Below, piece by piece: positions 3,799-63,900 of a stretch of 64,000 nucleotides of DNA (the stretch's first letter is position 1; each line of letters opens with the position of its first letter). The notes below the pieces were generated by a model. That model saw nothing but the letters and a program-made list of their open reading frames with translations. It did no database searches and had not been told where the DNA came from. Both the position numbers and the translations under genes were made by a program. Origin of the DNA: Artemia franciscana (lineage: Eukaryota > Arthropoda > Branchiopoda > Anostraca > Artemiidae); the NCBI RefSeq assembly GCF_032884065.1, contig NW_027062662.1:186001-250000 (forward strand), in the 5' to 3' direction.

Positions 3799-5548
3799 TC
3801 AAACAGTTCGTGGTAACGAACTGTAGTAAGGAGCGACCCGGCTCAATAGTAACCAAAACTCTAAAGAATTGAATTTTGATATCAATAGCTACATCAAAAG
3901 AATCGCATTTTAACGCTGATTTTAAATATATAAGTTTCATCAAGTTTAGTCCTACCCATCAAAAGTTACGAGCCTGAGAAAATTTGCCTTATTTATGAAA
4001 ATAGGGGGAAACACCCCCTAAAAGTCGTAGGATCTTAACGAAAATGACACCATCAGATTCAGCGTATCAGAAAACCCTACTGTAGAAGTTTCAAGCTCCT
4101 ATCTACAAAAATGTGGAATTTTGTATTTTTTGCCAGAAGACAAATCACGGGTGCGTGTTTATTTGTTTGTTTTTTTGTTTTTTTTTTTTTTTCCCCAGGG
4201 GTCATCGTATCGACAAAGTGGTCCTACAATGTCGCAAGAGGGCTCATTCTAACGGAAATGAAAAGTTCTAGTGCCCTTTTTAAGTGACCAAAAAATTTGG
4301 AGGGCATCTAGGCCCCCTCCCACGCTCATTTTTTTCCCAAAGTCAACGGATCAAAATTTTGAGATAGCCATTTTGTTCAGCATAGTCGAAAACCATAATA
4401 ACTATGTCTTTGGGGATGACTTACTCCCCCACAATCCCTGGGGGAGGGGCTGCAAGTTACAAACTTTGACCAGTGTTTACATATAGTAATGGTTATTGGG
4501 AAGTGTACAGACGTTTTCAGGGGGATTTTATTTTATTTGGGGGTGGGGCTGAGGAGAGGGGGCTATGTTGGAGGATCTTTCCTTGGAGGAATCTGTCATG
4601 GGGGAAGAAAAATTCAATGAAAAGGGCGCAGGATTCTCTAGCATTACTATAAGAAAACAATGAAAAATAAACATGAAAACGTTTTTTCAAATGAAAGGAA
4701 GAAGTAGCATTGAAACTAAAACGAACAGAGATTATTACGCATATGAGGGGTTCTAAAAATACTTTAGCATAAAGAGCGAGGTATTTAGGAGGAGATAAGT
4801 ACCTTGCTCTTTATGCTAAAGTATTTTTAGTAATTTCAACTATTTATTCTACGGTCTTTCTGATTCAGGGGTCATTCTTAAAGAATTGGGACAAAACTTA
4901 CGATTTAGTGTAAAGAGCGAGGTATTAACGAGGGTACAAACCCCCTCGTATACATAATAAAAAAATAAGGTTATGAAAGTTGGTTACGTAAGTTAATTCT
5001 TAAGTTACGCATATTTTTTACTAATAAAAACGTTCGTTAAAATTAAAAGTTCTAGTTGCCTTTTTAAGTAACCGAAAATTACAGGGCAACTAGGCCTCCT
5101 TCCTCACCCCTTATTTTTCAAAATCATCTGATCAAAACTAAGAGAAAGCCATTAAGCCAAAGAAGGAATTAATATGCAAATTTCATTTTAATAATTTATG
5201 TGCGGAGAGCCAAAACCAAACATGCATTAATTCAAAAACGTCCAGAAATTAAATAAAAAAAAACAATTTTTTTTAGCTGAAAGTAAGGAGCGACATTAAA
5301 ACTTAAAACGAACAGAAATTACTCCGTATATGAAATGGGTTGTCCCCTCCACAATCCCTCGCTCTTTACGCTAAAGTTTGACTTTTTGCCACAATTCTAC
5401 TTTTTAAAACAATTAAAAGCTTTAGCGTAAAGAGCGAGGGATTGTGGAGGGGACAACCCATTTCATATACGGAGTAATTTCTGTTCGTTTTAAGTTTTAA
5501 TGTCGCTCCTTACTTTCAGCTAAAAAAAATTGTTTTTTTTTATTTAAT
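3799..5548 (+). mobile_element. 1.7-kb Helitron-like non-autonomous element, copy 1
   Basis: A full-length member of the family that recurs throughout the window. It starts TCAAACAG within a perfect 8-bp palindrome (CAGTTCGT, loop GGTA, ACGAACTG) and continues GTAAGGAGCGACCCGG. The base before it is A. The last 300 bp form a giant hairpin: arms 5248-5371 and 5426-5548 with a loop of about 54 nt, ending ATTTAAT. Inner modules with AAAGAGCGAGG and GTAAGGAGCGAC words recur several times, and a T-run (about 4170-4192) sits at one third. There is an extra local palindrome at about 4755-4835 that only copy 2 shares. The hairpin loop is in the flipped orientation relative to copies 3, 4, 7, 8, 9 and 10. 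No coding frame is convincing. It lies in an intron of the Thr-rich gene, in sense orientation. Confidence 0.85.
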
Positions 5549-6135: not shown

Positions 6136-7785
6136 TCAAACAGTCCGTGGTAACGAACTGTAGTTTCATCAAATTTAGTCTTTGTCATCAAAAGTAACGA
6201 GCCTTCTGCTCGTAACTTTTTTTTCTTATTTTGGAAAATAGAGGGAAACACACCATAAAAGTCATAGAATCTTAACGAAAATCAAAACATCGCATTCAGC
6301 GTATCAGAGAACCCTATAGCAAAAATTTCAAGCTCCAATCTACAAAAATGTGGAATTTCGTATTTTTTGCCAGAAGACAGATCACGGGTGCGTGTTTATT
6401 TGTTTTTTTGGTGTTTTTTTTTCTTTTCCCAGGAGTCATCGTATCGACCAATTGGTGCTAGAATGTCACAAAAGGGCTCATTCTAACGAAAATGAAAAGT
6501 TCTAGTGCCCTTTTCAAGTGACCAAAAAATTGGAGGGCACCTAGGCCCCCTCCCACGCTAATGTTTTTCCCAAAGTCAACGGATCAAAATTTTGAGACAG
6601 CCATTGTGTTCCTTATAGTCAAAAACCATAATAACTATGTCTTTTGGGATGACTTACTCCCCCACAGTCACTGGGGGAAAGGGCTTCAAGTTACAAACTT
6701 TGAGCAGTGTTTACATATACTAATGGTTATTGAGAAGTGTACAGACGTTTTTAGGGAGATTTTTTGGTTTGGCGTGGGGTTGAGGGGATGGGGCTATGTG
6801 GGAGGATCTTTTCTTGGAGGAATATGTCACGGGGGAAGAGAAATTCAATGAAAAGGGCGCAGGATTTTCTAGCCTTACGATAAAAAAAACAATGAAAAAA
6901 TAAACATGAAAAAGTTTTATCAATTGAAAGTAAGGAGTAGCATTAAAACTTAAAACGAACAGAGATTATTACGCATATGAGGGGCTCTAAAAATACTTTA
7001 GCATAAAGAGCGAGGTATTTAGGAGGAGATAAATACTTCGCTCTTTATGCTAAAGTATATTTAGTAATTTCAACTATTTATTGTACGGCCTTTCTGATTC
7101 AGGGGTTATTCTTAAAGAATTTGGACCAAACTTAAGATTTAGTGCAAAGATCGAGGTATTAACGAGTGGACAAACCCCCTCATATACATAATAAAAATAT
7201 AAGAATATAAAAGTTTGTTACGTAAGTTAACTCTCAAGTTACGTATATGTTTTACAAATAAAAACGTTCGTTAAAAATTGAAAATTCTAGTTGCCTTTTT
7301 AAGTAATCGAAAAATTGGAGGGCAACTAGGCCTTCTACCCCACCCCTTTTTTCTCAAAATCGTTTGATCAAAACTAAGAGAAAGCCATTTAGCCAAAAAA
7401 AGAATTAATATGCAAATTCCATTTCAATAATTTATGTGCGGAGAGCCAAAATCAAACATGCATTAATTCATAAGCGTTCATAAATTAAATTAAAAAAAAA
7501 TGGTTTTTTTAACTCAAAGTAAGGAGTGACATTAAAACTTAAAACGAACAGAAATTACTTCGTATATGAAATGGGTTGTCCCCTCCACAATCCCTCGCTC
7601 TTTACGCTAAAGTTTAACTCTTTGCCATAATTCTACTTTTTAAAACGATTAAAAACTTCAGCGTAAAGAGGGAGGTGTTGAGGAGGGGAAAACCCATTTC
7701 ATATACGGAGTAATTTCTGTTCGTTTTAAGTTTTAATGTCGCTCCTTACTTACAGTTAAAAAAACTAATTTTTTTTTTATTTAAT
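6136..7785 (+). mobile_element. 1.7-kb Helitron-like element, copy 2
   Basis: Same family and strand as copy 1. It begins TCAAACAG with a one-base change in the palindrome (CAGTCCGT) and then lacks about 110 bp of the usual 5' part, jumping to the TTTCATCAAATTTAGTC segment. The terminal hairpin is present, but its arms now differ: the left reads CCTCCACAATCCCTCGC, the right GAGGGAGGTGTTGAGG. That suggests later mutation or conversion of one arm. The loop is flipped, as in copy 1, and the extra palindrome of copy 1 is also present (about 6985-7065), so the two are sisters. It starts only 31 bp after the donor of the exon ending at 6104. Confidence 0.85.
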
Positions 7786-16594: not shown

Positions 16595-18451
<1,857 letters not shown>

Positions 18452-18885: not shown

Positions 18886-19189
18886 GAAAAAGGAGACACA
18901 AAACAAAAAAGGATACGTCTTGAATTCGCTCAAAATACTTTTGACCGAAGATGATTATCAGGTTTAAACAAAAGGGATTAAATTTGAATTCGCTCAGAAT
19001 ACGTTTGACCGACGATATTTATCTGATCTATAAGATAAACGAGTCATTTACCAAAAAAGGATTAATTTTGAATTTACTCAGAATAATTTTGACCCAAGAG
19101 GATTAGCTGATCTATTGGAAAAAGACATAAACCAAAAATGGATTAACTATGAATTCGCTCAGAATAATTTTAACCGAACAGGATTATCT

Positions 19190-19375
19190 GATGTAAATAG
19201 AGACGAACACCACACTGCCTTTATATAAAAGAAAAAAATAGCTTAGATTCAAGCTGAAGACCGCCCTTTGTTGGGGCCGAAATAGTCACTAAATTTAATT
19301 TCACTGTCTTGAAAAATTTCCCTATTCTTTTGTAAGTTGTCTTTGTTTGTATTATCTTATCTACAGGAAAAAAGA
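19190..19375 (+). repeat. satellite spacer island, class B
   Basis: Starts GATGTAAATAG like class A, but continues TAGCTTAGATTCAAGCTGAA and CCGAAATAGTCACTAAATTT, ending in TGTATTATCTTATCT. Confidence 0.7.
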
Positions 19376-22061
19376 GACACAAACAAACAATGAATTAATT
19401 TTGAGTTCACACGGAATACTTTTGACTGAAAATGATTATCGTATCAATAGGAAAAAGGAGACTTAAACCTAAAGTGAATTAATTTTTAATTCGCTCAGAA
19501 TAGTTTTGACCGAAGAGAATTATCTGATCCATCAGAAAAAGGAGACATTAACCAAAAATGAATTAATTTTGAATTCGCTCTGGATACTTTTGACCGAAGT
19601 GAATTATCTGATCTATCGGTAAAAGGAGACATAAACAAAAAAGGATTAATTTTGAAATTGCTCAGAAAACTTTTTACCGAAGAGGATTATCTGATCTATA
19701 GGAAAATAGGAGACGTAAACTAAAAAATTATTTAAATTCGAAATCGCTTAGAACACTTTTGACCGAAGAGGTTTTTCTAATCTACGTTCTATAGATTCTA
19801 TAGGAAAAAGGAGATGTAAACCAAAAATGGATTAATTTTGAATCCGCTCAGAATACTTTTGACCTAAGAGGTTTATCCGATATATAGAAAAAAGGAGACA
19901 TAAACCAAAAATGGATTAATTTTGAATTCGCTCAGAATATTTTTGACCGAAGAGAATCATCTGATCTACAGTAAAAAAGAAGACATAAACTAAATATGAA
20001 ATAATTTTTAATTCACTCAGAATACTGTTAACTGAAGAGAATTATCTGATCTTTCGAAAAAAGGAGAAATAAGCAGAAAATGGATTACTTTTGAATTCGC
20101 TCAGGATACTTTTGACCGAAGAGAATTATCTGATCTATCAGGAAAAGGAGACATAAACGAAAAATGAATTAAATTTAAAATCGCTCAGAATACTTTTGAC
20201 CAAAAAGAATATTCTGATCTTTAGGAAAAAGGAGATATAAGCCAAAATTGACTAATTTTGAATTTTTTCAGAATACTTTTGACCGAAGAAGATTATATGA
20301 TCTATAGGAAAAAGGAGACATGAACCAAAAATGGATTAATTTTGAATTCACTCAGAATAATTTTGACCGAAGAGGATTTTCCGATCTATATGAAAAAGAA
20401 GACATAAATCAAAAATTGATTAATTTTGAATACGCTCAGAATACTTTTGACCGAAGAGAATTATCTGAACTATCGGAAAAAGAAGACATAAACAAAAAAT
20501 AGGTTAATTTTGAAACCGCTCAGGATACTTTTGACCGAAGAGGAATACCTTAACTATAGGAAAAAGGAGACATAAACCAAAAAATGAATTAAATTTGAAA
20601 TCACTCAGAATACTTTTGACCGAAGAGGTTTTTGTGATCTATAAGAAAGAGGAAATATAAACTAAAAATGGATTAATTTTGAATTCGCTCAGGATACTTT
20701 TGACCGAAGAAAATTATCCGATCTATCGGAAAAAGGAGACATGAATAAAAAATGAATTAAATTTGAAATCGCTCAGAATACTTTTGACTGAAAATAATTT
20801 TCTGATCTATAGGAAAAAGGAGATATAAACCAAAATGGGCTAATTTTGAATTTTCTCAAAATACTTTTGACCGAAGGAGATTATATGATCTATAGGAAAA
20901 AAGGAGACATAAACCAAAACTGGATTAATTTTGAATTTACTCAGAATACTTTTGATCCAAGAGGATTTTCCGATCTATAGGTAAAAGAAGACACAAATCA
21001 AAAATAGATTAATTTTGAATTCGCTCAGAATACTTTTGACCAAAAAGTATTAACTGATTTATAGGAAGAAGGAGACACAAACCAAATATTGATTAATTCT
21101 GAATATATTCAGAATAGTTTTGACCGAAAAAGATTATCTGATCTATACGAAAAAGGAGAAATAAGCCAAAAAAATTAATTTTGAATTTGCTTAGAATATT
21201 TTTGACCGAAAAGAATTATCTGATCTATAGTAAAAGAGGAGACATAAACTAAAAATCGAATAATTTTAATTCGTGCAGAATACTCTTGACCGGGATTAAT
21301 TATCTGATCTATCGGAAAAATTAGACATGAACCAAAAATGGATTAATTTTGAATTCCCTCAGGACACTTTTCACCGAAAAGAATTATCTGATCTATTGGA
21401 AAAAGGAGACATAAACCAAAAAATGAATTATATTTCAAAATCGCTCAGAATACTTTTGACCGAAGAGGTTTTTCTGATCTATAGGAAAAAGGAGATATAA
21501 ACCAAAAATGGGCTAATTTCGAATTTTCTCAAAATTCTTTGACCGAAGAAGATATATTATCCATAGGAAAAAGGAGACTTAAACTAAAAATGGATTAATT
21601 TTGAATTCACTCAGAATACTTTTGACCGAAGACGATTTTCCGATCTATAGGAAAAAGAAGACATAAGTCAAAAATATATTAATTTTGAATTCGCTCAGAA
21701 TACTTTTGAACGAAAAGGATTATCTGATCTATACGAAGAAGGAGACATAAACCAAAAATGGATAAAATTTGAATTCCCTCAGAATACTTTTGACCGAAGA
21801 GGATTATCTGATCTATTGGAAAAAGGAGACATAAACAAAAAATGGATTAATTTCGAGTTCACTCAGAATACTTTTGACTGAAAATGGTTATCTCATCTAT
21901 AGGGAAGAGGAGACATAAACCGAAAATGGATTAATTTTGTATTCGCTCAGAATACTTTTGACAGAAGACGATTATCTGATTTATAGGAAAATGAAGACAT
22001 AAAACAACAATTGATTAATTTTGAATTCACTCAGAATATTTCTGACCGAAAAGGATTATGT

Positions 22062-22195
22062 GATGTAAATAGAAACGAAGATCACACTGCCTTACTATAT
22101 AAAACAAACACAACTTAGAAACCAGTCTACGATGGCCCTTGGACATAGGGCCTCAATATTCACTGAATTTAATTCTAGTGTCTTTGCTCTTGAAT
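22062..22195 (+). repeat. satellite spacer island, class A, shortened
   Basis: GATGTAAATAGAAACGAAG, AACACAACTTAGAAACCAG, then GATGGCCCTTGGACATAGG. It lies about 3.35 kb from the first class A island and has lost its 3' third. Confidence 0.7.
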
Positions 22196-22819
22196 TTGCT
22201 CAGAATATTTTTGACCGAAGAGGATTATTTGATCTATAGTAAAAAGGAGACATAAACTAAAAATGGGATAATTTTTAATTCGCTCAGAATCCTTTTGACC
22301 AAACAGAATTATCTGATCTATCGGAAAAATGAGACATAATCCAAAAAATGGATTAATTTTGAATTCGCTCAGGATATTTTAGACCAAAGAGAATTATCTG
22401 ATCTATCGGTAAAAGGAGACATAAACAAAAAAATGGATTAATTTTGAAATCGCTCAGGATACGTTTGATCGAAGAGTAATATCTGATCTATTGGAAAAAG
22501 GAGACATAAACCAAAAACTTAATTAAATTTGAAATCGCTAAGAATACTTTTGACCGAGGAGGTTTTTCTGATCAATAAAAAAAGGAGACATAAACCAAAA
22601 ATAGATTAAATTTGATTTTCTTCAGAATACTGTTGACCGATAAGAATTTTCTGATCTATAAGAAGAAGGAGACATGAGCCAAAATGGGCTAATTTTGAAT
22701 TTTGTCAGAATACTTTTGACCGAAGAAGACTATTTGATCTATTGGAAAAAGGAGACATAAACCAAAAATGGATTAACTATGAATTCGCTCAGAATATTTT
22801 TGAACGAACAGGATTGTCT

Positions 22820-22990
22820 GATGTAAACAGCGACAAAGACCAGACTGCCTTTTCATATATAAAAAAAAACTTAGATTCAAGCTGAAGCAGGTCCTTTGAT
22901 AGGCGCTAAAAAGTCACTAAATTTAATTTCATTGTCTTGAAACATGTCTCTATTGTCTCTAAGTTATATTTGTTTGTATTATCTGACCTA
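22820..22990 (+). repeat. satellite spacer island, class B
   Basis: GATGTAAACAGCGACAAAG, then CTTAGATTCAAGCTGAAG and AAAAAGTCACTAAATTT. It lies about 3.63 kb from the previous class B island. A shorter related piece is at about 23430-23500. Confidence 0.7.
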
Positions 22991-25652
22991 TAGAAAAAAG
23001 GAGATATAAACCTAAAATGGATTACTTTTAAATTCCATGGAGTAATCCAAAAATGGATTACTATTTACTGAAGAGGATTAACTGATCTATAGGAAGAACG
23101 AGACATAAACCATAAATGGACAAAATTTTTATTTGGTCATAATACTTTTGACCGAGGTTTAATTGATCTATAGACAAAAGGAGACATAAACCAAAAATAG
23201 ATTAATTTTGATTTTTTTCAGAATAGTTTTGGCTGAACAAGATTATCTGATCTATATGAAAAAGGAGACATAAACAAAAAAGTATTATTTTTATTAATTG
23301 TCAAAATGATTAATTCACTCAAAATACTTTTGACCGAAGAGGATTATCTGATCTATAGAAAAAAGGAGACATAAACCAAAAATGGATTAATTTTGAACTC
23401 GCTCAGAATGCTTTTGACCGAAAGGGACAAAATATACAATGAGTTTAATTCTACTGCCTTGAAAAATATCCCTATTGTTTTAAGTTGTATTTAATTGGAT
23501 TATCTGATCTATAGAAAAAGGAGACATAAACCAAAAATGTATTAAATTTGAATTAGCTCAGAAATCTTTTCACCGAATAAGATTATCTTATGTATAGGAA
23601 AAAGGAGCCATAAACCAAAACTGGATTAATTTTGAATACCCTCAGAATACTTTTGACCAAAGACGTATATCTTCTCTATTATAAAAAAGGAGAAAAAAAC
23701 CAAAAATGGATAAAATATGTATTCGGTCAGAATATTTTTGACCGAAGAGGTTTAATTTATCTATAGGAAAAAGGAGACATATACCAAAAATGGATTAATT
23801 TTGAATGCTCTCAGAATACTTTTCACCGAAGAGAATTGTCTGATCTATAAAAAAAAGGACACATAAACCAAAAATGGATGAATTTTTAATTAACTCAGAA
23901 TACTTTTGACCGAGGAGGATTATCTGGCTTATAAAGAAAAAGAGACATAAACCACAAGTGGATTAAATTTGAATTCACTCAGAATACTTATGACCAATGA
24001 GGATTATCTAATCTATAGGAAAAAGGAAACGTGAACCAAGAGCGAATTAACTTTTGAACTCTCTCAAAATACTTTTCACCGAAATAAATTATAATCTATA
24101 GGAAAAATGAGACATAAGCCAAAAATTGATTTATTTTGAATTCGTTCAGATTACTTTTGACCGAAGAGGATAATCTGAACTATAGAAAAAGGAGACATAA
24201 ACCAAAAATGTGTTAAATTTGAATTCGCTCAGAACAATTTTGACCGAAGGGGATTATACGATTTATATGTAAAATAAAGACATAGACCGAAAATAGATTA
24301 ATTTTGAATCCGCTCACTATAATTGTGACCGATGAGGATTATTTGATCTATAGGGGAAAGGAGACATAAACCAAAAATAGATTAATTTTGAATTCGCTCA
24401 GAATACTTTTAACCGAATTATTCTTCGGCTATATGTTTTATAGGGGACATAAAAGGAGATATAAACCAAAAATGAATTAAATTTGAATTCGCTCAGAATA
24501 ATCAAAACCAAAAATGTGAGTCATTAACCAAACATTGAATAATTTTGAATTTGCTCAGAACAATTTTGACCCAAGAAGATTATCTGATCTATAGGAAAAG
24601 GAGACATAAACCAAAAATGGATTAATTTTGAATATCCTCAGAATACTTTTGACCGAAGACGTTTATCTTCTCTATAGGAAAAAGGAGACAAAAACCAAAA
24701 ATTAGATAAAATTTGTATTCGGTCAGAGTACTTTTGACCGAAGAGGTTTAATTGATCTATAGAAAAAAGGAAACATAAACCAAAAAAAGATTAATTGAAT
24801 TCGCTCAGAATACTTTTGACCGAAGAGGATTATCTGATCTACAGGAAAAAGGAGACATAACCATAAATGGATGAATTTTGAGTTCATTCAGAATACTTTC
24901 GAAGGAAAAGGTTTATCATATCTATAGGAAAAGGAGACATAAAACAAAAGGTTTATTTTCAATTGGCTCAGTATAATTTTGACCCAAGAGGATTATCTGA
25001 TCGATGGGAAAATAGAAGACATAAACCAAATATGGATTAACTATGAATTCGCTCAGAATACGTTTGACCGAAGAGGATTATCTGATCTATTGGAAAAAGG
25101 AAACATAAACCAAAATTGGATTAATTTTGAACACCCTCAGAATACTTTTGACCGAAGACGTTTTTCTTCTCTATAGGAAAAAGAAGACAAAAAGCAGAAA
25201 TGGATACAATTTGTATTCAGTTAGAATACTTTTGACCGAAGAGGTTTAATTGATTTATAGAAAAAAGGAAACATAAACCATAAATGGATTAATTTTGAAT
25301 TTTTTCAGAATAGTTTTGATCGAAGAATATTATCTGATCGATATGAGAAAGGAGACATAAATAAAAAAAAAGAATAATTTTGACTTTTCCCAGAATACTT
25401 TTGACCGAGGAGGATTATCTGGTTTATAAGAAAAGGAGACATAAACCAAAAATGGATTAAACTTGAATTCACTCAGAATACACCTGACCGAATAGGATTC
25501 TCGCATCTATAAGAAAAAGCGACAAAAACCAAAAATTGATTAAATTTGAATACGCTCAGAATACTTTTGATTGAAAAGGATTATCTGATGTATGGGAAAA
25601 ACGAGACAAAAAATTAATTCCCTCAGAATACTTCTGACCAAAAAGGACTATG

Positions 25653-25835
25653 TGATGTAAACAGCGACAAAGACCACACTGGATTTTAATATAAAAAAAA
25701 CTTAACTTAGAAACAAGCTGAAGACGGCCCTTGGACATAGGGCTGAAGTATTCCATGAATTTAATTCCACTATCTTGAAAAATGTCCCTATTTTGTTGTA
25801 AGTTTTGTTTGTTTGAATGATTTGATCTATAGGAA
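25653..25835 (+). repeat. satellite spacer island, class A
   Basis: GATGTAAACAGCGACAAAG, CAAGCTGAAGACGGCCC, TTGGACATAGGGC, ending TTTGTTTGTTTGAATGATTTG like the first island. The unit after it shares the odd variant GACACAAAACAAAAAAGG with the unit after the first island. Confidence 0.7.
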
Positions 25836-26278
25836 AAAGGAGACACAAAACAAAAAAGGATTCATCTTGAATTCACTCAAAATACTTTTGACCGAAGAGG
25901 ATTATCTGATCTATAGGAAAAAGGAGACATAAACCTGAAATAAACTAATTCGGTCATAATACTTTTGACCGATGTGGATTATCTGCCTTATAGGGAAAAG
26001 GAGACATAAACCAAAAATGGATTATATTTGAATTAATTCAGAATACGTTTGACAGAAAATATTTATCTAATCTCTAGGAAAGAGGAGTCATTAACCAAAA
26101 ATGGATTAATTTTGAATTCGTTCAGAATACTTTTGACCGAAGAGGATTATCTGGTTTATAGGGGATTATCGGGATTATAGGGATTATCTGGTTTATAGAA
26201 GGAGACATAAAAAAAACGATTAAACTTGAATTCACTCTGAATACGTTTGACCGAAGATATTTATCTGATCTATAGGAA

Positions 26279-27990
26279 ATTAAATAAAAAAAACGAGTTT
26301 TTTTAACTGAAAGTAAGGAGCGACATTAAAACTTAAAACGCACAGAAATTACTTCGTATATGAAAGAGGCTGCTTCCTCATCAACGCCCCGCTCTTTACG
26401 CTAAAGTTTGACTCTTTCTCTCAATTCTTCTTTTTAAAACAGTAAAAAACTTTAGCGTAAAGAGCAGGGCGTTGATGAGGAAGCAGCCTCTTTCATATAC
26501 GAAGTAATTTCTGTGCGTTTTAAGTTTTAATGTCGCTCCTTACTTTCAGTTAAAAAAACTCGTTTTTTTTATTTAATTTCTGAACGTTTTTGAATCAATG
26601 CATGTTTTGATTTTGAATCTCCGCAGAGGAATAATCAAAACGAAATTTGCATATTTTTTTTGGGGGGGGGGGGGTTAATGGCTTTCTCATAATTTTGATC
26701 GAATGATTTTGAGAAAAAAGAGCGGGGGCGAAGCCTAGTTGCCCTCCGATTTTTTGGTTAATTAAAAAGGCAACTAGAACTTTTAATTTTTTACGAATCT
26801 TTTTATTGGTAAAAGATTTAGGTAACTTATAAATTAGCTTACGTAAAGAACTTTTGTATTCTCATGTTTTTATTACATATATAAGGGGATTCGCCCCATC
26901 GTCAGTACCTCGCTCTTTACACTAAAGCTTAAATTTTATCCCAATTCATTAAGAATGACCCCTGAATCACAAAAGCCGTAGAATAAATAGTTGAAATTAC
27001 TAAAAATACTTTAGTGTAAAGAGCTAGGTATCATAAGGAGGTGAGCCCCTTAGATGGGTAATAATTTCTGTTTGTTTTAAGTTTTATTGCTGTTCCTTAC
27101 TTCCAGCTGAAAAAGCTTTTTCACATTTATTTTTTAATTTTGTTTTAAATAATGCTAGTAAATCCTGATCTCCCTTCATGGAAGTTTTCTTCTCCCATGA
27201 CAAATTCTCGATGGAAAATTCCCTCAGCATATCCTCCTCTTCTCAGCCCCTCCCCCCAACCGAAAAAATCCTCCTGAAAACGGCTGTATGCTTTCCAATA
27301 ACCAATACTATATGTAAGCACAGGTCAAAGTTTGTAACTTGTTGCCCCTCCCACGGGGACTTTGGGGGAGTAAGTCGTCCCCAAAGACATACTTATAAGG
27401 TTTTTCGACTACGCTGAATAAAATGGCGATCTCAGAATTTTGATCCGTTGACTTTGGGAAAATAATTAGCGTGGGAGGGGGCCTAGGTGCCCTCCAATTT
27501 TTTTGGTCACTTAAAAAGGGCACTAGAACTTTTCATTTCCGTTAGAATGAGCCCTCTTGCAACATTCTAGGACAACTGGGTCGATACGATCACCCCTGGG
27601 GAAAAAAAAAAAAAACAAAAAAACAAATAAACACGCATCCGTGATCTGCCTTCTGGCAAAAAATGCAAAATTCCACATTTTTGTAGATAGGAGCTCGAAA
27701 CTTCTACAATAGGGTTCTCTGATACGCTGAATCTGATGGTGTGATTTTCGTTAAGATTCTATGACTTTTAGGGGGTGTTTCCCCCTATTTTCTAAAATAA
27801 CGCAAATTTTCGAAGGCTCGTAACTTTTGATGGGTAAGACTAAACTTGATGAAACTTATATATTTAAAACCAGCATTAAAATTCAATTCTTTTGATATAG
27901 CTATTGGTATCAAAATTCCATTTTTTTGAGTTTTGGTTACTATTGAGCCTGGTCGCTCCTTACTACAGTTCGTTACCACGAACTGTTTGA
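26279..27990 (-). mobile_element. 1.7-kb Helitron-like element, copy 3, inside the satellite
   Basis: A full-length copy read on the minus strand: TCAAACAG end at 27990, hairpin end at 26279. Left flank CTATAGGAA and right flank AAGGAGAGATAAACC rejoin into one satellite unit, so this is a clean insertion with no visible target duplication beyond an A-run ambiguity. The terminal hairpin (about 26279-26577) has nearly perfect arms carrying GGCTGCTTCCTCATCAACG and its complement. The loop is in the common, unflipped orientation. A G-run (about 26669-26682) and an A-run (27602-27614 region) are expanded homopolymers. Confidence 0.9.
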
Positions 27991-28448
27991 AAGGAGAGAT
28001 AAACCAAAAATGGATAAAATTTGAATTAACTCAGCACACGTTTGACCGAAGATATTTTTCTGATTGATAGGAAAAAGGAGTCATTAACCAAAAATGGATT
28101 AATTTTGAATTTCCTTAGAACAATTTTGACAGAAGAGGATTATATGATATATAGGAAAAAGGAGACATAAACCAATAATGGATTAAATTTGAATTCGCTC
28201 AAAATACTGTTGACCGAAGAAGTTTATCTAATCTATAGGAAAAAGGAGACATAAACCTAAAATAGATTAATTTTAAATTCGCTCAGAATACTTTTGACAG
28301 AAGAGGATTATATGATACATAGGAAAAAGGAGACATAAACCAAAAATGGATTAACTTTGAATTCGCTCTGAATACTTTTGAACCAAGAGGATTATCTGAT
28401 CTAAATAGTAACGAAGACAATACTGCCTTTCCATGTCAAACAAACACA
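27991..28448 (+). repeat. 84-bp satellite array, forward, continuation
   Basis: Five to six further units after copy 3. The block ends in a truncated class A-like spacer (about 28398-28448), after which unrelated sequence begins. Confidence 0.9.
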
Positions 28449-30423: not shown

Positions 30424-30744
30424 GGAGCGTCCCGGCTCAATAGTAAACGAGACTCTAAAAAACATAATTTTGATACTAAAAAATACATCAAAAGAATCGG
30501 ATTTGTATGCTGATTTCAAATATATAAGTTCCATCCAATTTCATTTTTGTCATCAAAAGTTACGAGCCTGAGAATATTTGCCTTGTTTTGGAAAACAGGG
30601 TGAAACACCCCCTAAAAGTCATAGAATCTTAACAAAAATCACACAATCACATTCAGCGTATCAGAGAACTCTACTGTATAAGCTCCTATCTACAAAAATG
30701 TGGAACTTCGTATTTTTTTGCCAGAAGATCGATGACGGGTGCGT

Positions 30745-30791
<47 letters not shown>

Positions 30792-32094
30792 CAGGTGTCA
30801 TCGTATTGACCAAGTGGTCCTAGGATGTCATAAGAGGGCTCATTCGAACGGAAATGAAAAGTTCTAGTGCCCTTTTTAAGTGACCAAAAAATTAGAGGGT
30901 ACCTAGGCCCCCTCCCACGCTCATTTTTTTCCAAAGTCGACAGATGAAAATTTTGAGATAGCCATTTTGTTCAGCATAGTCGAAAACCTTAATAACTATG
31001 TCTTAGGGGAAGACTTACTCCCCCACAGTCCCCGGGGTAGGGGCTACAAGTTAAAAACTTTGACCAGTGTTTACATACAGTAATGGTTATTGGGAAGTGT
31101 ACAGACGTTTTCCGGGAGAATTTTGGATAGAGGTGAGGGGGCTATATGGGAGGACCTTTCCTTGGAAGAATATTTCATGGGGGAAGAGAAATTCAATGAA
31201 GGGAGTTCAGGATTTTCTAGCATTATTATAAAAAAAAATGAAAAAATAAACATGAAAAAGTTTTTTCAGCTGAATGTAAGGAGCAGCATTAAAAATTAAA
31301 ACGAACAGAGATTATTAAGCATATGAGGGATTCTTTTCCTCCTAAATATCTCGCCCTTTATGCTAAAGTAATTTTAGTAATTTCAACCATTTATTCTACG
31401 GCCTTTCTGATTCAGGGGTCATTCTTAAAGAATTGGGACAAAATTTGAGCTTTATTGTAAAGAGCGAGGTATTAACGAGGGGACGAACCCCCTCATATAC
31501 ATAATAAAAACATAAGAATATAGAAGTTCGTTACGTAACTTAATTCTTAAGTTACGTATATTTTTACTAGTAAAAACGTTCGCTAAAAATTTAAAGTTCT
31601 AGTTGCCCTTTTAAGTAACCGAAAAATTGGATGGCAACTAGGCCTCTTCCCCCATTCTTTTTTCTCAAAATAGTCTGATCAAAACTAAGAGAAAGCCATT
31701 TAGCCAAAAAAAGAATTAATATGCAAATTTCATTTTAATAATTCATGTGCAGAGAGCCAAAATCAAACATGCATTAATCCAAAAACATTCAGAAATTAGA
31801 TAAAAAAAAAATTAGTTTTTTTAACTGAAAGCAAGGAGCGACATTAAAACTTAAAACGAACAGAAATTACTCCGAGTATGAAAGGGGATATTCCCTCCTC
31901 AGCGCCCCGCTCTTTACACTAAAGTTATTTACTGTTTTATAAAGTAGAATTGAGAGAAAGAGTCAAACTTTAGCGTAAAGAGCGGGGCGTTGAGGAGGGA
32001 ATAGCCCCTTTCATACACGGAGTAATTTCTGTTCGTTTGAAGTTTTAATGTCGCTCCTTACTTTCAGTTAAAAAAAACTAGTTTTTTTATTTAA
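30424..32094 (+). mobile_element. 1.7-kb Helitron-like element, copy 4, 5'-truncated
   Basis: Starts inside the GGAGCGACCCGGCTC block, so the TC terminus and palindrome are lost. A T-run of more than 40 bases (about 30747-30791) replaces the usual 12-20 T. The terminal hairpin is intact (about 31790-32094), with arms carrying ATTCCCTCCTCAGCGCCCCG on the left and a matching right arm, and the loop is unflipped. It ends TTTAA before T. The 20-bp tandem repeat follows within 90 bp. Confidence 0.85.
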
Positions 32095-32180
32095 TTCCTT
32101 GAAAGCTTCACCCTAACACTCTTAGCCTGCGTAGTAGCAATAGTTGTGTTAGCATTAGTATTAATACTTTTATAAAAATG

Positions 32181-32684
32181 CTTGACGTTGTAGACTTATG
32201 TTAGACATAGTACATTTAGGCCTGACATAGTCGATTTTGGCTTGATCTAGAAGATTTAGGCTTGAAATATTAGATTTAGACCTGACATTGCAGATTTAGG
32301 CTTAACATAGTAGATTTAGCCTTGAAATAGTAGATTTAGGCCTGACAGAGTAGATTTAGGTCTGAAATAAAAGATTTAGGCTTGATATAATGCGTTTAGG
32401 CTTGACATAAAAGATACAGGCTTGTCATAACAGATATAGGCTTGACATTGGAGGTTTAGGCTTTACTTAGTAAATTTAGCCTTGAAATAGTAGATTTAGG
32501 CCTGACACAATAAATTTAGGCCTGACATAGTAGATTAGGTATATTAGGTCTAGGTTGACATAAAAATTATAGGCTTGTCATAACAGATTTAGGCTTGACA
32601 TATTAGATTCAGGCCTGACATTGCAGACTTAGGCTTAACATAGTAGATTTAGCCTTAAAATAGTAGATTTAGCCCTAAGTCTTA
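32181..32684. repeat. 20-bp tandem repeat, about 25 diverged copies
   Basis: Unit close to TAGATTTAGGCTTGACATAG. It stops exactly where a reverse-oriented satellite unit begins. Confidence 0.9.
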
Positions 32685-36834: not shown

Positions 36835-36839
36835 GACTT

Positions 36840-37150
36840 CCAAAGTTTGTTTGCCCTTTTTAAGACTCAAAAATGAATTGAGGACAATCAGTTCCCCCAA
36901 GCCTATCACTCCCAAAAACATATCCGATCAAAATTTTAAGAGATTTATTTTATTCAGCCTTGTTGAAAGGTCCAGAAATTATGTCTATAGGAATGTCCAC
37001 CTCCCCACAGTCTTCAGGATTAGGGTTGTAAGCTAGGCAATTCGTTCATTGTTTACACAAAGTATATGTTATTGAGAAAGATGTATATGTTTGAATTTTA
37101 CTTTCCAAGAAGACGAAGGGCACTCAGGTCAGCCTTTCAGAGAATGTTGA
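36840..37150 (+). mobile_element. diverged relic of the 1.7-kb element within satellite
   Basis: TTGCCCTTTTTAAGACTC, CCGATCAAAATTTTAAGAG, CAGCCTTGTTGAAAGG, CCTCCCCACAGTCTTCAGG and TTGTTTACACAAAGTATATG follow the order of the element's central third. Both ends are missing. Strong divergence from the other copies suggests an old insertion. Confidence 0.6.
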
Positions 37151-37314
37151 GGGGAGTGTTCAACTAAATCAAAACATGTGTATAAGAATTGTCAAAAGGG
37201 CGTAACAAGGAATAACTGAGGATATTAATTAGAAAAATTCAGGAAATGATAAGGGATATGATACAACTACCAAGCTAAATCAAATGACGCTATTTGCATG
37301 CAAACGACGTCCAA

Positions 37315-48612: not shown

Positions 48613-50198
48613 TTAAATAAAAAAAACAAGTTTTTTCACTGAAAGTAAGGAGCGACATTAAAACTTAAAACGACCAGAAATTACTTCGTATATGAAAGAG
48701 GCTGCTTACTCATCAACGCCCCGCTCTTTACGCTAAAGTTTTTTACTGTTTTTTAAAAGAAGAATTGAGAGAAAGAGTCAAACTTAAAGAAAGGGTCAAA
48801 CGTAAAGAGCGAGGCGTTGATGTGGAAGCAGCCTCTTTCATATACGAAGTAATTTATGGTCGTTTTAAGTTTTAATGTCGCTCCTTACTTTCAGTTAAAA
48901 AGACTTTTAGGAATAAAAAGTCAGTTTTAAAAAAACCAGAGGAATAATTAAAACAAAATTTGCATTTTTTTTTTGGCTAAATGACTTTCTCATATTTTGA
49001 TCGAATGATTTTGAGAAAAAAAGCGGGGGGGGGGGAAGCCTAGTTGCCCTCCGATTTTTTGGTTAATTAAAAAGGCAACTAGAATTTTCAGTTTTTTACG
49101 AATATTTTTATTAGTAAAAGATTTACGTAACTTATAAATTAGCTTACGTAAAGAACATTTGTATTCTCATATTTTTATTACATATATGAGGGGGTTCGCC
49201 CCCTTGTCAGATCCTCGCTCTTTACACTAAAGCTTAAATTTTGTCCCAATTCATTAAGATTGACCCCAGAATCACAAAAGCCGTAGAAGAAATAGTTGAA
49301 ATCACTAAAAATACTTTAGCGTAAAGAGCGAGGTATTAGGACGAGGTGAGCCCCTCAAATGGGTAATAATTTCTGTTTGTTTTAAGTTTTAATGCTGCTC
49401 CTTACTTCCAGCTGAAAGAAATTTTTCATATTTACTTTTTCATTGTTTTTTTTAAATAATGCTAGTAAATCCAGCGCTCCCTTCATGGAGATTTTCTTCC
49501 CCCATGACAAATTATCGACGGAAAGTTCCCCCAGCATATTCCCCTCTTCTCAAACCCTCCCCCAACCAAAACAATCCTCCTGAAAACGCCTGTACACTTC
49601 CCAGTGACCATTACTATATGTAAGCACTGGTCAAAGTTTGTAACTTGTTGCCCCTCCCACGGGGACTGTGGGGGAGTAAGTCGTCCCCAAAGACACAGTT
49701 ATAAGGTTTTTCGACTACGCTGAATAAAATGGCTATCTCAGAATTTTGATCCTTTGACTTTGGTAAAATAATTAGCGTGGGAGGGGGTCTAGGTGCCCTC
49801 CAATTTTTTTAGTCACTTAAAAAGGGCACTAGAACTTTTCATTTCCGTGATCTGCCTTCTGGCAAAAAATACAAAATTCCACATTTTTTTGTAGATAGGA
49901 GCTTGAAAGTTCAACAGTAGAGGTCTCTGATACGCTGAATCTGATGGTGTGATTTTCGTCAAGATTCTATGACTTCTAGGGGGCGTTTACCCCTATTTTC
50001 TAAAATAACGCAAATTTTCTCAGGGTCGCAACTTTTGATGGGTAAGATTAAACTTGATGAAACTTATATATCTAAAATCAGCATTAAAATGCGATTCTTT
50101 TGATGTAGGTATTGGTATCAAAATTCCATTTTTTAGAGTTTTGGTTACTATTGAGCCGGGTCGCTCCTTACTACAGTTCGTTACCACGAACTGTTTGA
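48613..50198 (-). mobile_element. 1.7-kb Helitron-like element, copy 5
   Basis: Minus-strand copy: TCAAACAG end at 50198 preceded by A, hairpin end at 48613 followed by T. The terminal hairpin (48613 to about 48905) has GCTTACTCATCAACG and GTTGATGTGGAAGC arms, and its loop is flipped relative to copy 3, which is on the same strand. About 115 bp are missing at 49846, between CCG-T words, including the T-rich tract. Confidence 0.88.
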
Positions 50199-52565: not shown

Positions 52566-54399
52566 TTAAATAAAAAAAACAGGTTTTTTTCACTGAAAGT
52601 AAGGAGCAAGATTAAAACTTAAGATGAACAGAAATTACTCCGTGCATGAAAGGGGCTGTTCTCTCCTCTACACCCCCCTCTTTACGCTAAAGTTTGACTC
52701 TTTCTCTCAACTCTACTTTTTAAAACAGTAAAAAACTCTAGCGCAAAGAGTGGGGCGTTGAGGAAGGAGCAGCCCCTTTCATATACGAAGTAATTTCTGT
52801 TCATTTCAAGTTTTAATGTTGCTCTTTACTTTCAGTTAAAAAAATTGTATTTTTTTTTATTTAATATCTGAATGTTTTTGAATTAGTGCATACTTGATTT
52901 TGGCTCTCCGCACATGAATAATTAAAACGAAATTTGCGTATTATTTTTTTGGCTAAATGGCTTTCTCTTAGTTTTGATATGACGATTTTAAGAAAAAGGG
53001 TTGGGGGAGGAGGTCTAGTTGCCCTCCAAGTTTTTGGTAACTTGAAAAGACATCTAGATTTTTTAATTTTAACGAACTTTTTATTAGTAAAAAATATGCG
53101 TAACTTACGTAACAAACTTCTGTATTCGTATATTTTTATTATGTATATGAGGGGGTTGGCCCCCTCGTTGATGTCTCGCTCTTTTCAGTAAAGCATTAAT
53201 TTTGTCTCAAATTTTTAAGGATAACCCCTGAATCACAAGGCCGTAGAATAAATAGTTGAAATTACTAAAAATACTTTAGCGTAAAGAGTGATGTATTTAG
53301 GAGGAGATGAAACCCTCATGTGCGTAATAATCTCTGTCCCTTTTCAAGTGACCAAAAATATTGGAGGGCAACTACGACCCCTCTCACGTCACTTTTTACA
53401 ATAATCGTCCGATCAAAATTTTGAGATATATTTTTTCTTCAGCATGGTTGAAAAGCCCAATAACTGTAACTTTAGAGATAAAAAGACCCTCTACAGCTCC
53501 TGGGGAAAGGTTTTTTAGATTATAAAATTTACCAATTGTTTTATTTGTTATTGGAAAGTATGCATGCATTTTTTCAGTCGGGGAGAGGAGGACGAATTTT
53601 CTGCTGGGAGGATTTTACACGGGGAGAATTCTCCATAAAGAGGAAAATTTCCAGAGGGTGAACTTTTCAAGGGAAGTTTTAAACTGGGTGAATTTGCCAG
53701 AATTCCTGTACGAATTTTTTTTATGTTTCTAACTTTCTATTTACCGATTCAATTATTAGCGTAGAGATGTTAAGGGTAATTGTCCGGGGTAAATTTTTCC
53801 CTGGAGTGAATTGCCAAAAGGATATATCTTTGGCGAGGGGGATTTTTAAGGAGGTAGAGTCTGGTATCCTGGCGTTATTAAAAAACCATCAGAAATTAAA
53901 TATAAAGAAACAACTTTTGGGGAAAAAATGAGCGTGGAAAGGGGCCAAGGTGCCCTCTAATTTTTTTGATCACTTAAAATAGGACACTAAAACTTTTAAT
54001 TTTCGTTATAATGAGCCCTATCAAAAAAACAAACAAATAAACACGCACCCGTGATCGGTTTTCTATCAAAAATTACGAAGTTCCACATTTTTGTAGATAG
54101 GAGGTTGAAACTTCTACAGTATGGTTTCCTGATATGTTAAATGCGATGATGTGGTTGTCGTTAAGATTATATGACTTTTAGGGGATGTTTCCCCTATTTT
54201 CCAAAATAAGGCAAATTTTCTCAGGCCCGTGACTTTTGATGAGTAAGTCGAATATGATGAAACTTGATTTATTTAAAGTCAACATAAAAATCCGATTCTT
54301 TTGATGTATCTATTGGTATCAAAATTCCGATTTTTAGAGTTTTGTTTACTGTTGAGCCGGGTCTTTCCCTTCTACAGTTTGTTACCACGAACTATTTGA
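52566..54399 (-). mobile_element. 1.7-kb element, copy 7, with an inverted central segment
   Basis: Hairpin end at 52566 and TCAAATAG end at 54399, so the element is on the minus strand. Between about 53338 and 53880 the sequence runs in the plus orientation (TCAAGTGACCAAAAATATTG to GTTATTGGAAAGTATGC), then minus resumes at about 53920. The inverted part carries an expanded G-rich zone of short GGGGNGAATTTTCC-type repeats. The hairpin (about 52566-52865) has an unflipped loop. A 20-bp partial repeat of the terminus (TTACCACGAACTTTTTAAT) follows the end. Confidence 0.8.
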
Positions 54400-58150: not shown

Positions 58151-59874
58151 TCAAACAGTTCGTGGTAACGAACTGTAGTAAGGAGCGACCCGGCTCAATA
58201 GTAACCAAAACTCTAAAAAATGGAATTTTGGTACCAATAGCTACATAAACAAAATTGCATTTTAATGCTGATTTTAAATATATAATCATCAAGTTTAGTC
58301 TTACGCATCAAAAATTACGAGCCTGAGAAAATTTGCGTTATTTTAGAAAATAGGGGGAAACGCCCCCTAAAAGTCATTGAATCTTAACGAAAATCACACC
58401 ATCAGATTCAGCGTATCAGAGAACCCTACTGTAGAAGTTTCAAGCTCCTATCTACAAAAGTGTGGAATTTTATATTTTTTGCCAGAAGGCAGATCACAGA
58501 TGCGTGTTTATTTGTTTGTTTGTTTTTTTTTTTTCTTCCCAGGGGTGATTGTATCGACCCAGTTGTCCTAGAATGTTGAGAGAAGGCTCGTTCTAACGGA
58601 AATGAAAAGTTCTAGTGCCCTTTTTAAGTGAACAATAAAAATGGAGGGCACCTAGGCCCCCTCCCACGCTAATTATTTTCCCATAGTCAACGGATCAAAA
58701 TTCTGAGATAGCCATTTTATTCAGCGTAGTCGAAAAACCTTATAACTATTTCTTTGGGGACGACTTACTCCCCCACAGTCCCCGTGTTAGGGGGTTACAA
58801 GTTCAAAACTTTGACCAGTGCTTACATATAGTAATGGTTATTGGGAAGTGTACAGGCGTTTTCAGGAGGATATTTGGTTGGAGGCAGGAGCTGAGAAGAG
58901 GGGGATATGCTGGGGTAACTTTCCATCGAGGAATTTGTCATGGGGGAAGAAAATTTCCATGAAGGGAGTGCAGGATTTACTAGCATTACTTAAAAGAAAA
59001 ACAATGAAAAAATAAATATGAAAAAGTTTTTTTTTCAGCTGGAAGTAAGCAGCAGCATTAAAACTTAAAACGAACAGAAATTATTACCCATTTGAGGGGC
59101 TCACCTCCTCCTACTACCTCGCTCTTTACGCTAAAGTATTTTTAGTAAATTCAACTATTTATTCTGCGGCTTTTGTGATTCAGGGGTCATTCTTAATGAA
59201 TTCGGACAAAATTTAAGCTTTAGTGTAAAAAGCGAGGTACTGACGAGGGGGCGAACCCCCTCATATATGTAATAAAAACATGAGAATACAAAAGTTCTTT
59301 ACGTAAGCTAATTTATAAGATACGTATATCTTTTACTTATAAAAAGATTCGTAAAAAATTAAAAGTTCTAGTTGCCTTTTTAATTAACCGAAAATCGAAG
59401 GGCAGCTAGGCTTCCTCCCCCGCTCTTCTTTTCTCAAAATAATTCAATCAAAATTATGAGAAAGCCATTTAGCCAAAAAAAAATAAATATACAAATTTCG
59501 TTTTAATTATTCCTCTGCGGAGAGCCAAAATCAAAGCATGCATTGATTCGAAAACGTTCAGAAATTAAATAAAAAAGAAACAATTTTTTAAATGAAAGTA
59601 AGGAGCGACATTAAAACTTAAAACGAACAGAAATTACTCCTTATATGAAAGGGGCTTTTCCTTCTCAACGCCCTGCTCTTTACGCTAAAGTTTTTTACTG
59701 TTTTAAAATGTAGAGTTAAGAGAAAGAGTCAAACTTTAGCGCAAAGAGCGGGGCGTTGAGAAGGAAAAGCCCCTTTCATATAAGGAGTAATTTCTGCTCG
59801 TTTTAAGTTTTAAAACGTATTAAGTTTAAAACGCTCCTTACTTTCATTTAAAAAAAGTTTTTTTTTTTATTTAA
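58151..59874 (+). mobile_element. 1.7-kb Helitron-like element, copy 8, inside a LINE
   Basis: A complete copy: TCAAACAGTTCGTGG at 58151 preceded by A, TTTAA at 59871-59874 followed by T. Removing it rejoins the LINE RT (SNFLF then HKRIQILQNK) at an A^T site with at most one extra base, so no target duplication is seen. The hairpin (about 59568-59874) has GGGGCTTTTCCTTCTCAACG and its complement in the arms, and the loop is unflipped. Near the right end about 12 bp of a TTAAGTTTAAAACG word are duplicated. Confidence 0.92.
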
Positions 59875-61625: not shown

Positions 61626-63332
61626 TCAAACAGTTCGTGATAACGAACTGTAGTAAGGAGCGACCCGGCTCAATAGTAATCGAAATTCTAAAATACCGAT
61701 ACCAATACTTGATACCGATAGTTACATCAAAAGAATCGCATTTTAATGCTGATTTTCAATATATAAGTTTCATCAAGTTTAGTTTTACCCATCAAAAGTT
61801 ACGAGCCTGAGAAAATTTGCCTTATTTTAGAAAATAGGAGAAATACCCTTTAAAAGTCATAGAATCTTAACAAAAATCACACCATCAGATTCAGCGTATC
61901 AGAAAACCCTACAGTAGAAGTTTCAAGCTCCTATCGACAAAAATGTGGAATTTTGTATTTGTTTGCTACGCGACAGATCACGGATGCGTGTTTATTTGTT
62001 TTTTTTTTTTGCTTTTTTTGTGTGTTTTTTTTTCAAGGTTGATCGTATTGACCCACTGGTCCTAGAACTTCGCAAGAGAGGTCATTATAACGGAAATTAA
62101 AAGTTCTAGTGCCCTTTTTAAGTGACAAAAAACTGGAGGGCACCTAGGCCCTCTCCCACGCTCATTTTTCCCAAAGTCACCGGATCAAAGCTCTGAGATA
62201 GCCATTTTATTCAGCATAGTCGAAAAACCTAAAAACTATGTCTTTGAGGAAGAATTACTTCCCCAAAGTCCCCGTGGGAGGGGCTGCAAGTTACAAACTT
62301 TGATCAGTGTTTACCCATAGTAACGGTTATTGGGATGGGTACAGACACTTTCAGGAGGATTTTTCGGTTGGGAGGAGGAATTGAGGAGAGGGAGTAATGT
62401 GGGGGGAACTTTCCATGGAGGAATTGGTCATGGGGGAAGAGAATTTTCATGAAGGTGGCGCAGGATTTTTAAGCTCTTAAAGAGCAATGAAAAAATAAAT
62501 ATGAAAAGTTTCTTCAACTGTAAGTAAGGAGCGGCATTAAAAATTAAAATAAACAGAAATTATTACACTTATGAGGGTTTCAGCTTCTCTTAATACCTCT
62601 CTCTTTACGCTAAGGTAATTTTATTAATTACAACGGTCTTTCGGTCTTCGTGATTCAGGGGCATTCTTCAGGAATTGGGACAAAATTTAAGCTTTAGTGT
62701 AAAGAGCGAGGTATTGACTAGGGGACGAAACCGCTCAAATACGTAATAATCACATACGAATTTAGAAGTTCGTTATGTAAGTTATTTCGTAAGTTACGTA
62801 TATTTTTACTAATAAAAACGTTCGTAAAATTAAAAGTTCTAGTTGCCTTTTTAAGTAACCAAAAATTGGGAGGGTAACTAGGCCTACTCCCTAGCTCCTT
62901 TTTTTCTCAAAATTGTCCAATCAAAACTACGAGAAAGCCATTTAGCCAAAACCAACTTAATATGCAAATTTCGTTTTAATGATTCATGTGCGGAGAGCCA
63001 AAATCAAAACATGCATTAATTCAAAAAGGTTCAGAAATTAAATTTTAAAAATGTTTTTTTAACTGCAAGTAAGGAGCGACGTTAAAAATTAAAACAAACA
63101 GAAATTATTCCTTATATGAAAGGGGTTGTCCCCTCCTCAACACCTAGCTCTTTACGCTAACATTTTTATTGTTTTAAAAAGTAGAGTTGTGAGAAAAAGT
63201 CAAACTTTATCGTAGGCAGCGAAGCGTTGAGGAGGGGACAACCCCTTTCATATATGGAATGATTTCTGTTCGTTATAAGTTTTAATGTCCCTCCTTACTT
63301 TCAGTTAGAAAAAACTTGTTTTTTTTATTTAA
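61626..63332 (+). mobile_element. 1.7-kb Helitron-like element, copy 9
   Basis: A complete copy: TCAAACAGTTCGTGATAACG at 61626, where one palindrome base has changed, preceded by A. It ends TTTAA at 63332 followed by T. The hairpin arms carry GTTGTCCCCTCCTCAAC and GTTGAGGAGGGGACAAC, and the loop is unflipped. The T-rich tract is broken by GC and GTGTG. Confidence 0.9.
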
Positions 63333-63623: not shown

Positions 63624-63900
63624 TTAAATGAAAAAAAATAAGTTTTTTTAACTGAAAGTAAGGAGCGACATTAAAACTTAAAACGAACAGAAATTACTTC
63701 TTATATGAAAGGGGCTGCTTCCTCATCAACGCCTCGCTCTTTACGCTACATTTTAACTCTTTCTCTCAACTCTTCTTTTTTTTTAAAACAGTAAAAAACT
63801 TTTGATGTAGCTATTTGTATCAAAATTCCATTTTTTAGAGTTTTGGTTACTATTGAGCCGGGTCGCTCCTTACTACAGTTTGTTACCACGAACTGTTTGA
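63624..63900 (-). mobile_element. 1.7-kb family, copy 10, 277-bp internal-deletion derivative
   Basis: Has both true ends (hairpin-side ATTAAAT at 63623-63629 and CTGTTTGA ending at 63900) but nothing between the hairpin loop and the last 100 bp. The junction near 63800 falls at a shared CTTT. Only the outer hairpin arm survives. It sits at A^T with no visible duplication, so the shortened form may have moved as such. The last 100 bp of the window show nothing further. Confidence 0.85.

Follow-up and report, generated by a model that had tools for sequence, protein, structure and literature searches.

How does a 1.7-kb DNA element that encodes no protein spread through a genome without duplicating its target, and to which class of transposons does it belong? 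The question is raised by one copy, c3, in the window, a stretch of 64,000 nucleotides from a contig of Artemia franciscana. A sequence-only reading of this DNA had described a Helitron-like family that inserts between A and T, and had left open whether it is a diverged rolling-circle family or a new type.

A protein-less family with fixed ends and two modules

The window contains ten copies or parts of one 1.7-kb transposon family (Table 1). In its own orientation the family starts with TCAAACAGTTCGTGGTAACGAACTGTAGTAAGGAGCGACC, that is with 5' TC, and finishes with a T-rich tract and TTTAA. The constant ends 5'-TC and TTTAA-3' of the sequence-only reading are found in the window copies; TGTAA and TTTCA also occur as 3' variants in the family, and all three lack the CTRR of canonical Helitrons, as had been remarked for TTTAA. 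The copy under study is present on the minus strand as described; its lower limit is 26280 rather than 26279. Pfam searches with 10 of the 24 window ORFs of at least 120 aa detected no Rep/helicase family, and Rfam gave 0 matches over the window at the gathering threshold. Viral and prokaryotic contigs, among which records near the source genome may be absent, also gave 0 matches to a 34-base piece of the 5' end. An exact pattern count found 27,661 copies of the 25-nt 5' end in the assembly and 0 of the reversed pattern. The family is therefore a major component of the genome, and its insertions form a vast natural archive of a mechanism that leaves no duplication. Rolling-circle transposons make up 8.81% of the A. 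franciscana genome according to the part of PMC11492255 drawn on here, a share that may or may not include the present family; the same source gives a genomic GC content of 34.7-34.9%, and that of the window is 34.1%.

The surroundings are rich in other repeats. A large, interrupted 84-bp satellite extends over 18970-28403 and 35731-38816 in opposite orientations and is the host of c3. Twenty-five copies of a 20-bp unit are arranged in tandem at 32180-32672, and at 16600-18250 most of the long open frames coincide in part with long AG-rich simple repeats. Decayed LINEs lie at 33501-35792 (minus strand, with reverse transcriptase and endonuclease remnants) and at about 56000-58150 (plus strand, with a reverse transcriptase remnant).

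Table 1. Copies of the family in the window and features of copy c3
Feature	Position	Strand	Remark
c1	3799..5547	+	A^T; 97% identity between palindrome arms; loop in opposite orientation to c3
c2	6136..7784	+	G^T; loop inverted
c3, copy under study	26280..27990	-	5' TC at 27990, 3' TTTAA at 26280; inside 84-bp satellite unit, T^T
c4	30424..32094	+	5' truncated
c5	48613..50198	-	A^T; loop inverted
c6			broken host of c7, pieces on both sides of c7
c7	52566..54399	-	A^T; nested in 5' hairpin of c6
c8	58151..59874	+	A^T; flanks rejoin LINE-like reading frame
c9	61626..63332	+	A^T
c10	63624..63900	-	A^T; 277-nt internal-deletion copy, one palindrome arm
5' terminal hairpin	27965..27986	-	element nt 5-26, 9-bp stem, loop GGTA, z -5.5
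13-bp inverted repeat, 5' copy	27952..27964	-	AGTAAGGAGCGAC; element nt 27-39, behind 5' hairpin
Module A block repeated in module B	27422..27538	-	about 80% like module B block
Decayed older hairpin, module A	26870..27121 (approximate limits)	-	consensus 862-1125; resembles terminal hairpin
Module B block	26677..26789	-	about 80% like module A block
Inner palindrome arm	26447..26580	-	99% complementary to outer arm
Outer palindrome arm	26276..26409	-	match extends 4 nt past element into A/T flank
13-bp inverted repeat, 3' copy	26312..26324	-	32 nt from 3' end
Small A-run/T-run hairpin	26286..26304	-	between inverted repeat and 3' end

The two ends are organised differently. The stem of the 5' hairpin is perfect in five of the eight 5' ends in the window. 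The 3' copy of the 13-bp repeat is the reverse complement of AGTAAGGAGCGAC and is exact in 21 of 26 3' ends; the remaining five comprise the window copies c7, c8 and c9, the genomic copy L073, which differs, and L077, which is cut off. Its distance from the end is 25-35 nt in the 25 3' ends measured. Most copies contain the small A-run/T-run hairpin, which is gone in L073. Neither this hairpin nor the 13-bp repeat figured in the sequence-only reading. There is no inverted repeat at the very termini of the element.

The body of the element is composite. In the family consensus, a block at 455-572 recurs at 1206-1321 with 82% identity, and each module has a hairpin. When the hairpin of the Helitron Helraiser is removed, transposition reads through past the 3' end, as an experiment described in part of PMC4778049 found. 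By analogy, the 1.7-kb unit probably arose when transposition passed a decayed 3' end and continued to the following one.

Target choice and insertion without duplication

Genome-wide, the base before the 27,661 5' ends is A in 19,489 cases (70.5%), T in 5,499 (19.9%), G in 2,551 (9.2%, a count obtained by subtraction and not by direct counting) and C in 122 (0.4%). One common 3' end variant is followed by T in 1,768 and by another base in 10 of 1,778 matches, a count that takes in inner arms of the palindrome, on whose inward side T stands as well. The genome-wide counts are not all independent because of these inner arms and because the assembly of 1.27 Gb probably holds some loci twice; flow cytometry puts the genome at 0.93 Gb, as stated in part of PMC8406910. 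A set of distinct insertions was assembled from 30 loci fetched by their exact 60-nt 5' end, of which 25 differ in their flanks, and seven window copies, c3 being already among the loci as L032. At these 32 distinct junctions, position -1 is occupied by A in 24, T in 5, G in 3 and C in 0 (A excess, p about 1e-6), position -2 by T in 21, A in 10 and G in 1, and position -3 by T in 14, C in 11, A in 6 and G in 1.

T follows the element in 28 of 28 copies with both flanks read, a result that is partly built in because the script that set 20 of these 28 ends demanded TTTAA, TGTAA or TTTCA and then T. Inspection of the printed sequences by eye agrees with a T after the element, and the whole-genome count secures it for the TTTAA variant only. 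All nine window copies with a 3' end (c1-c5 and c7-c10) are followed by T. The preceding base is A in c1, c5, c7, c8, c9 and c10, G in c2 and T in c3, which agrees with the flanks earlier read for c1, c2, c3, c5, c8, c9 and c10. Insertion takes place at D^T, preferentially after A, and strict A^T is rejected: from the proposed A^T site, A as the commonest base before the element and T as the base after it are retained, but T^T and G^T are common genome-wide.

Copies that interrupt a known sequence reveal what insertion does to the target. Three genomic copies are nested in copies of the same family, L055 at AAAA^TC, L049 at ATTA^TTACGC and L035 at TTG^TTTACAT, so that the family consensus serves as the empty site. 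Compared by eye with this consensus, nothing is gained or lost at the three junctions; the hosts differ from it at other nearby bases. The trailing T lies outside the element, since in all three cases the host consensus would be incomplete without this T, and the idea that it is part of the element is out. At the point where c3 lies, 24 of 33 satellite matches have five consecutive A (18 of 24 on the plus and 6 of 9 on the minus strand), and the flanks joined after removal of c3 hold exactly five A (empty site T^T), which bears out the earlier claim that an intact satellite unit remains. Removal of c8, said to rejoin a LINE reading frame, does give an open frame of 83 aa that by eye resembles a LINE C-terminus; Pfam gave no match for the joined 83-aa frame, and the upstream piece of the host matches RVT_1 at 1.1e-9. 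For c7, the host c6 is too diverged in its 5' hairpin to provide an exact empty site.

In the 28 paired flanks, matches of 2 nt occur six times against 4.25 expected from shuffling, matches of 3 nt five times against 1.95, and matches of 4 nt not at all. Four of the five 3-nt matches are TTA...TTA, and in L049 both TTA are native to the host consensus. A consistent duplication of at least 2 bp, which the sequence-only reading had named as contrary evidence, was looked for in these 28 pairs; none is consistent, and the nested sites are clean. Target duplication is ruled out by the nested empty sites together with the lack of any 4-nt flank match, and the absence of duplication claimed earlier holds for the satellite, the LINE-like frame and the three self-nested sites, which are all restored without duplicated bases. 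Helraiser reportedly inserts without target duplication as well. The same is stated for Helitrons in part of PMC4067079.

Concerted palindrome and invertible loop at the 3' end

Nothing in the family is as unusual as its concerted palindrome and the invertible loop within it. The giant 3' hairpin noted from the sequence consists of two arms of about 130-140 nt (about 105 nt in c5). Within a copy, the arms are 99.2% identical in c3 and 97.1% in c1; they agree at 121 of 122 positions in the genomic copy L058 and show no mismatch in L064 (120 identities, 4 gap positions). Six further window copies were measured, and their arms are 80.7-94.3% alike, with c9 at 80.7%. Arm identity between copies is about 80-96%, and c3 and c1 diverge by 11-13% in arms and body. 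In an alignment of ten copies, both sides have changed in 28 of 128 pairs. Doubly changed cells number 57 compared with 17 in shuffles, and 0 of 500 shuffles reach the observed value, in a control that leaves the kinship among the ten copies in. In a tree of the arms, inner and outer arm pair by copy for c1, c3, c5, c8, c9 and L064, with support of 59-98 where given and with the arms of c1 identical at the root. The two arms of c2, c4 and c7 are not sisters, and the nearly identical arms of L058 stand unresolved beside c3.

The loop is readable in 22 of 39 sequences, which represent 18 distinct insertions. Fifteen of these have the common orientation and three (c1, c2 and c5) the inverted one, a ratio that does not support a flip in every cycle. 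The arms of L064 group with those of c1 and c2, yet its loop has the common orientation, and c3 and L058, which stand beside c5, also carry the common form. With such mixed orientations within arm groups, a correct tree implies two or more inversions of the loop. One arm is missing in L033/L057 and in L060, and nearly the whole palindrome in L053/L054. Among 100 listed matches to a 34-mer of the 3' end, about 15 identical pairs on opposite strands, 264-265 bases apart, were counted by eye; these are palindromes in which both arms match there.

The concerted arms suggest fold-back copying of the 3' end. Ordinary chromosomal gene conversion, combined with inverted-repeat recombination, is a live alternative that could produce both the concert of the arms and the inversion of the loop. 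Among the titles and abstract openings listed by literature searches on Helitrons and on Artemia repeats, none mentions a giant concerted palindrome in a Helitron. What is new here is the concerted giant palindrome, the loop in both orientations and the fusion of two related modules. The palindrome gives access to the copying and termination of 3' ends in rolling-circle elements, processes little known for Helitron2-type elements.

Mechanism, candidate movers and relation to known systems

Fixed ends, D^T insertion without duplication, a 5' hairpin, a 13-bp subterminal repeat, a T-rich 3' end and very high copy number characterise this family. It is, in our view, likely to be a non-autonomous transposon that travels as a single strand under a rolling-circle mechanism of the HUH Rep/helicase kind, its termini being arranged as in Helitron2/HINE elements. 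A Rep/helicase supplied in trans would nick at the 5' TC, one strand would be displaced, and the process would stop at the 3' hairpin region. Cleavage would occur at TTTAA^T, a sequence similar to the favoured target YWA^T, and the displaced strand would be joined into the target before T. The giant palindrome may be an inverted duplication of the 3' end which, when single-stranded, would fold back and let one arm serve as the template for copying or repairing its partner; this would keep the arms identical while subfamilies drift apart. Several findings count against parts of this reading: the 13-bp repeat follows the 5' hairpin, unlike in Helitron2, the 5' stem is perfect in only 5/8 window copies, and 3-nt flank matches exceed expectation (5/28 against 1.95). 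Fold-back copying in particular is at odds with the non-sister arms of c2, c4 and c7 and with the low arm identity of c9.

We searched the assembly for the mover with the Helitron Rep profile PF14214, scoring 150 of 7,435 first-look candidates. Thirty fetched Rep domains are 95.4-99.6% like one of ten wider loci and form one family. It is a canonical Helitron with a GC-rich 3' hairpin and with CTAG before T in 10/10 loci; in the eight aligned loci its start reads TCTATATATA or near, beside (AT)n, and since the start adjoins (AT)n its exact 5' end is one that we infer. These ten loci (L061-L070) hold a young element with long open Rep/helicase frames, most copies lying in or beside (AT)n. As partner this dominant Rep/helicase is set aside, as its ends share nothing with those of the present family. 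Among the PF14214 loci read, which belong to this one dominant family, there was no Rep/helicase with the ends of the present family. The check proposed with the sequence-only reading thus met a CTAG family with other ends, and rarer Rep families would be hidden because the dominant one fills the scored list.

The best surviving rival is a narrower form of the preferred reading, to which we assign somewhat below an even chance: the family would be a true Helitron2/Helentron derivative (HINE) whose Helitron2-type Rep/helicase is still in the genome. Two end hairpins, a short inverted repeat with its 3' copy upstream of the hairpin, the T-rich end and the lack of duplication agree with it, but 26 nt separate the 5' repeat from the end, the repeat is not part of the hairpin, and T^T makes up only 20% of sites. 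The motif PH-hydrophobic-H-x-L-x-W, which we take to be typical of Helentron-type Rep proteins, also speaks for it, with 78 pattern matches in the assembly versus 4 for the reversed control. By eye, 36 of the 65 matches displayed read PHVHILIW and 7 read PHVHCLLW, and some of the remainder look like chance; the canonical family reads PHAHILIW, and the Helentron-type motif is absent from it. Judged by their sequence, the PHVHILIW/PHVHCLLW loci possibly represent a second, non-canonical Helitron Rep family. They are leads and not the partner, being candidate Rep genes without a link to the ends of the present family. A comparison of 40 5' ends of the family (listed out of 1,220 candidates, with 27,661 exact ends in all) with 59 of the 78 motif places put the closest pair 35 kb apart, but a linkage could easily escape so small a sample; the other 19 places are on contigs without any of the 40 ends.

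We give a slim chance to a self-templating lineage outside Helitron1, Helitron2 and Helentron, in which the excised strand would fold, one arm would be rewritten from the other and the loop would sometimes be flipped. Parvoviruses replicate by a rolling-hairpin mechanism and have a terminal palindrome in two orientations. The palindrome described here likewise occurs in two orientations, but no viral genes were seen, and 3 of 18 distinct insertions are inverted, not half. If true, such a lineage would join a hairpin terminus like that of parvoviruses to a 5' end and a choice of target like those of Helitrons.

It is very improbable that the family derives from canonical Helitrons and owes its movement to the dominant CTAG-ending Helitron. 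The 5' TC, the favoured A before the insertion, the lack of duplication and the abundance of the canonical family would fit. However, the apparent start of the dominant family, its GC-rich 3' hairpin and its CTAG end have no similarity to the ends studied here, and where the two families occur near each other, in L064, L066 and L068 among the ten 10-kb loci, the present one forms separate insertions.

Single-strand 'peel and paste' transposition by an IS200/IS605-like one-tyrosine HUH element in a eukaryote is very improbable. IS200/IS605-like elements have end hairpins, favoured target bases beside the left end and a target-like cleavage sequence at the right end, and they make no duplication. 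All of these traits recur here, but the high copy number fits copy-type transposition and the two-module structure fits rolling-circle read-through. A cut-and-paste or TTAA-type element with a missed duplication, suggested by TTTAA+T at the 3' end, by the many 5' flanks ending in TTA or TAA and by the five pairs that share three flanking bases, is hardly credible given the restored self-nested and satellite empty sites, the termini without inverted repeat and the lack of 4-nt flank matches.

The preferred reading concerns behaviour, which is that of a rolling-circle, single-strand element, more than membership of a named family. The TC start, the lack of duplication, the empty sites and the asymmetric, hairpin-bearing 3' end sustain the rolling-circle side of the earlier proposal, under which the family may or may not be a new type; as a canonical A^T Helitron it does not stand, with no CTRR, with T^T and G^T common and with different ends in the dominant canonical Helitron. 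We do not file it in Helitron1, because it lacks CTRR and is not strictly A^T, nor in Helitron2/HINE, because the 5' repeat is misplaced and T^T is a minority.

Known systems share parts of this design, as far as the portions of the sources used here describe them. Canonical Helitrons (Helraiser, PMC4778049, and the dominant Helitron of this genome) likewise have a 5' TC, favour A^T and carry a 3' hairpin near the end, but theirs is short and followed by CTAG, and no end sequence is shared. FoHeli1/2 of Fusarium oxysporum (PMC5148889) resemble the family in the TC start, the immediate 5' hairpin, hairpins at both ends, the T-rich 3' end and an A/T-rich target motif; they differ in including putatively autonomous elements of about 5-6 kb and in having the repeat within the hairpins. 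HINE/DINE-1 elements of Helentrons (Thomas et al. 2014, PMC4067079) are also non-autonomous, very abundant and free of target duplication, and their 12-15 bp subterminal repeats and 3' palindrome near the end compare with the 13-bp repeat and palindrome here. They insert at TT or T-rich sites, whereas 70% of the sites here have A before the element, and the giant size of the palindrome is particular to the present family. Helitron2 (Bao and Jurka 2013, PMC3627910) shares the hairpin near each end, the lack of duplication and a short inverted repeat whose 3' copy, about 30 nt from the end, precedes a hairpin. The 5' repeat of Helitron2 is 0-2 nt from the end and inside the hairpin, and insertion follows TTTT; here the repeat occupies nt 27-39 after the hairpin, insertion is at A/T/G^T, and the palindrome is giant.

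Set against the canonical Helitron layout, the family has the 5' TC (the loci were chosen by their exact 5' end, and the junctions fit TC) and no duplication, and departs from it in the missing CTRR and in A preceding 19,489/27,661 rather than all insertions. Set against Helitron2/HINE, it has hairpins at both ends and a 3' repeat at 25-35 nt, within the expected distance of about 20-60 nt from the end and upstream of the hairpin. It departs from that layout in a 5' repeat at nt 27-39 instead of 0-4 nt from the end, and in T preceding 5,499/27,661 insertions where TT or T-rich sites are expected. Helitron2/HINE is the nearest relative in layout, and the graded target choice of the family (A > T > G, almost never C) lies between the canonical A^T rule and the Helentron T^T rule.
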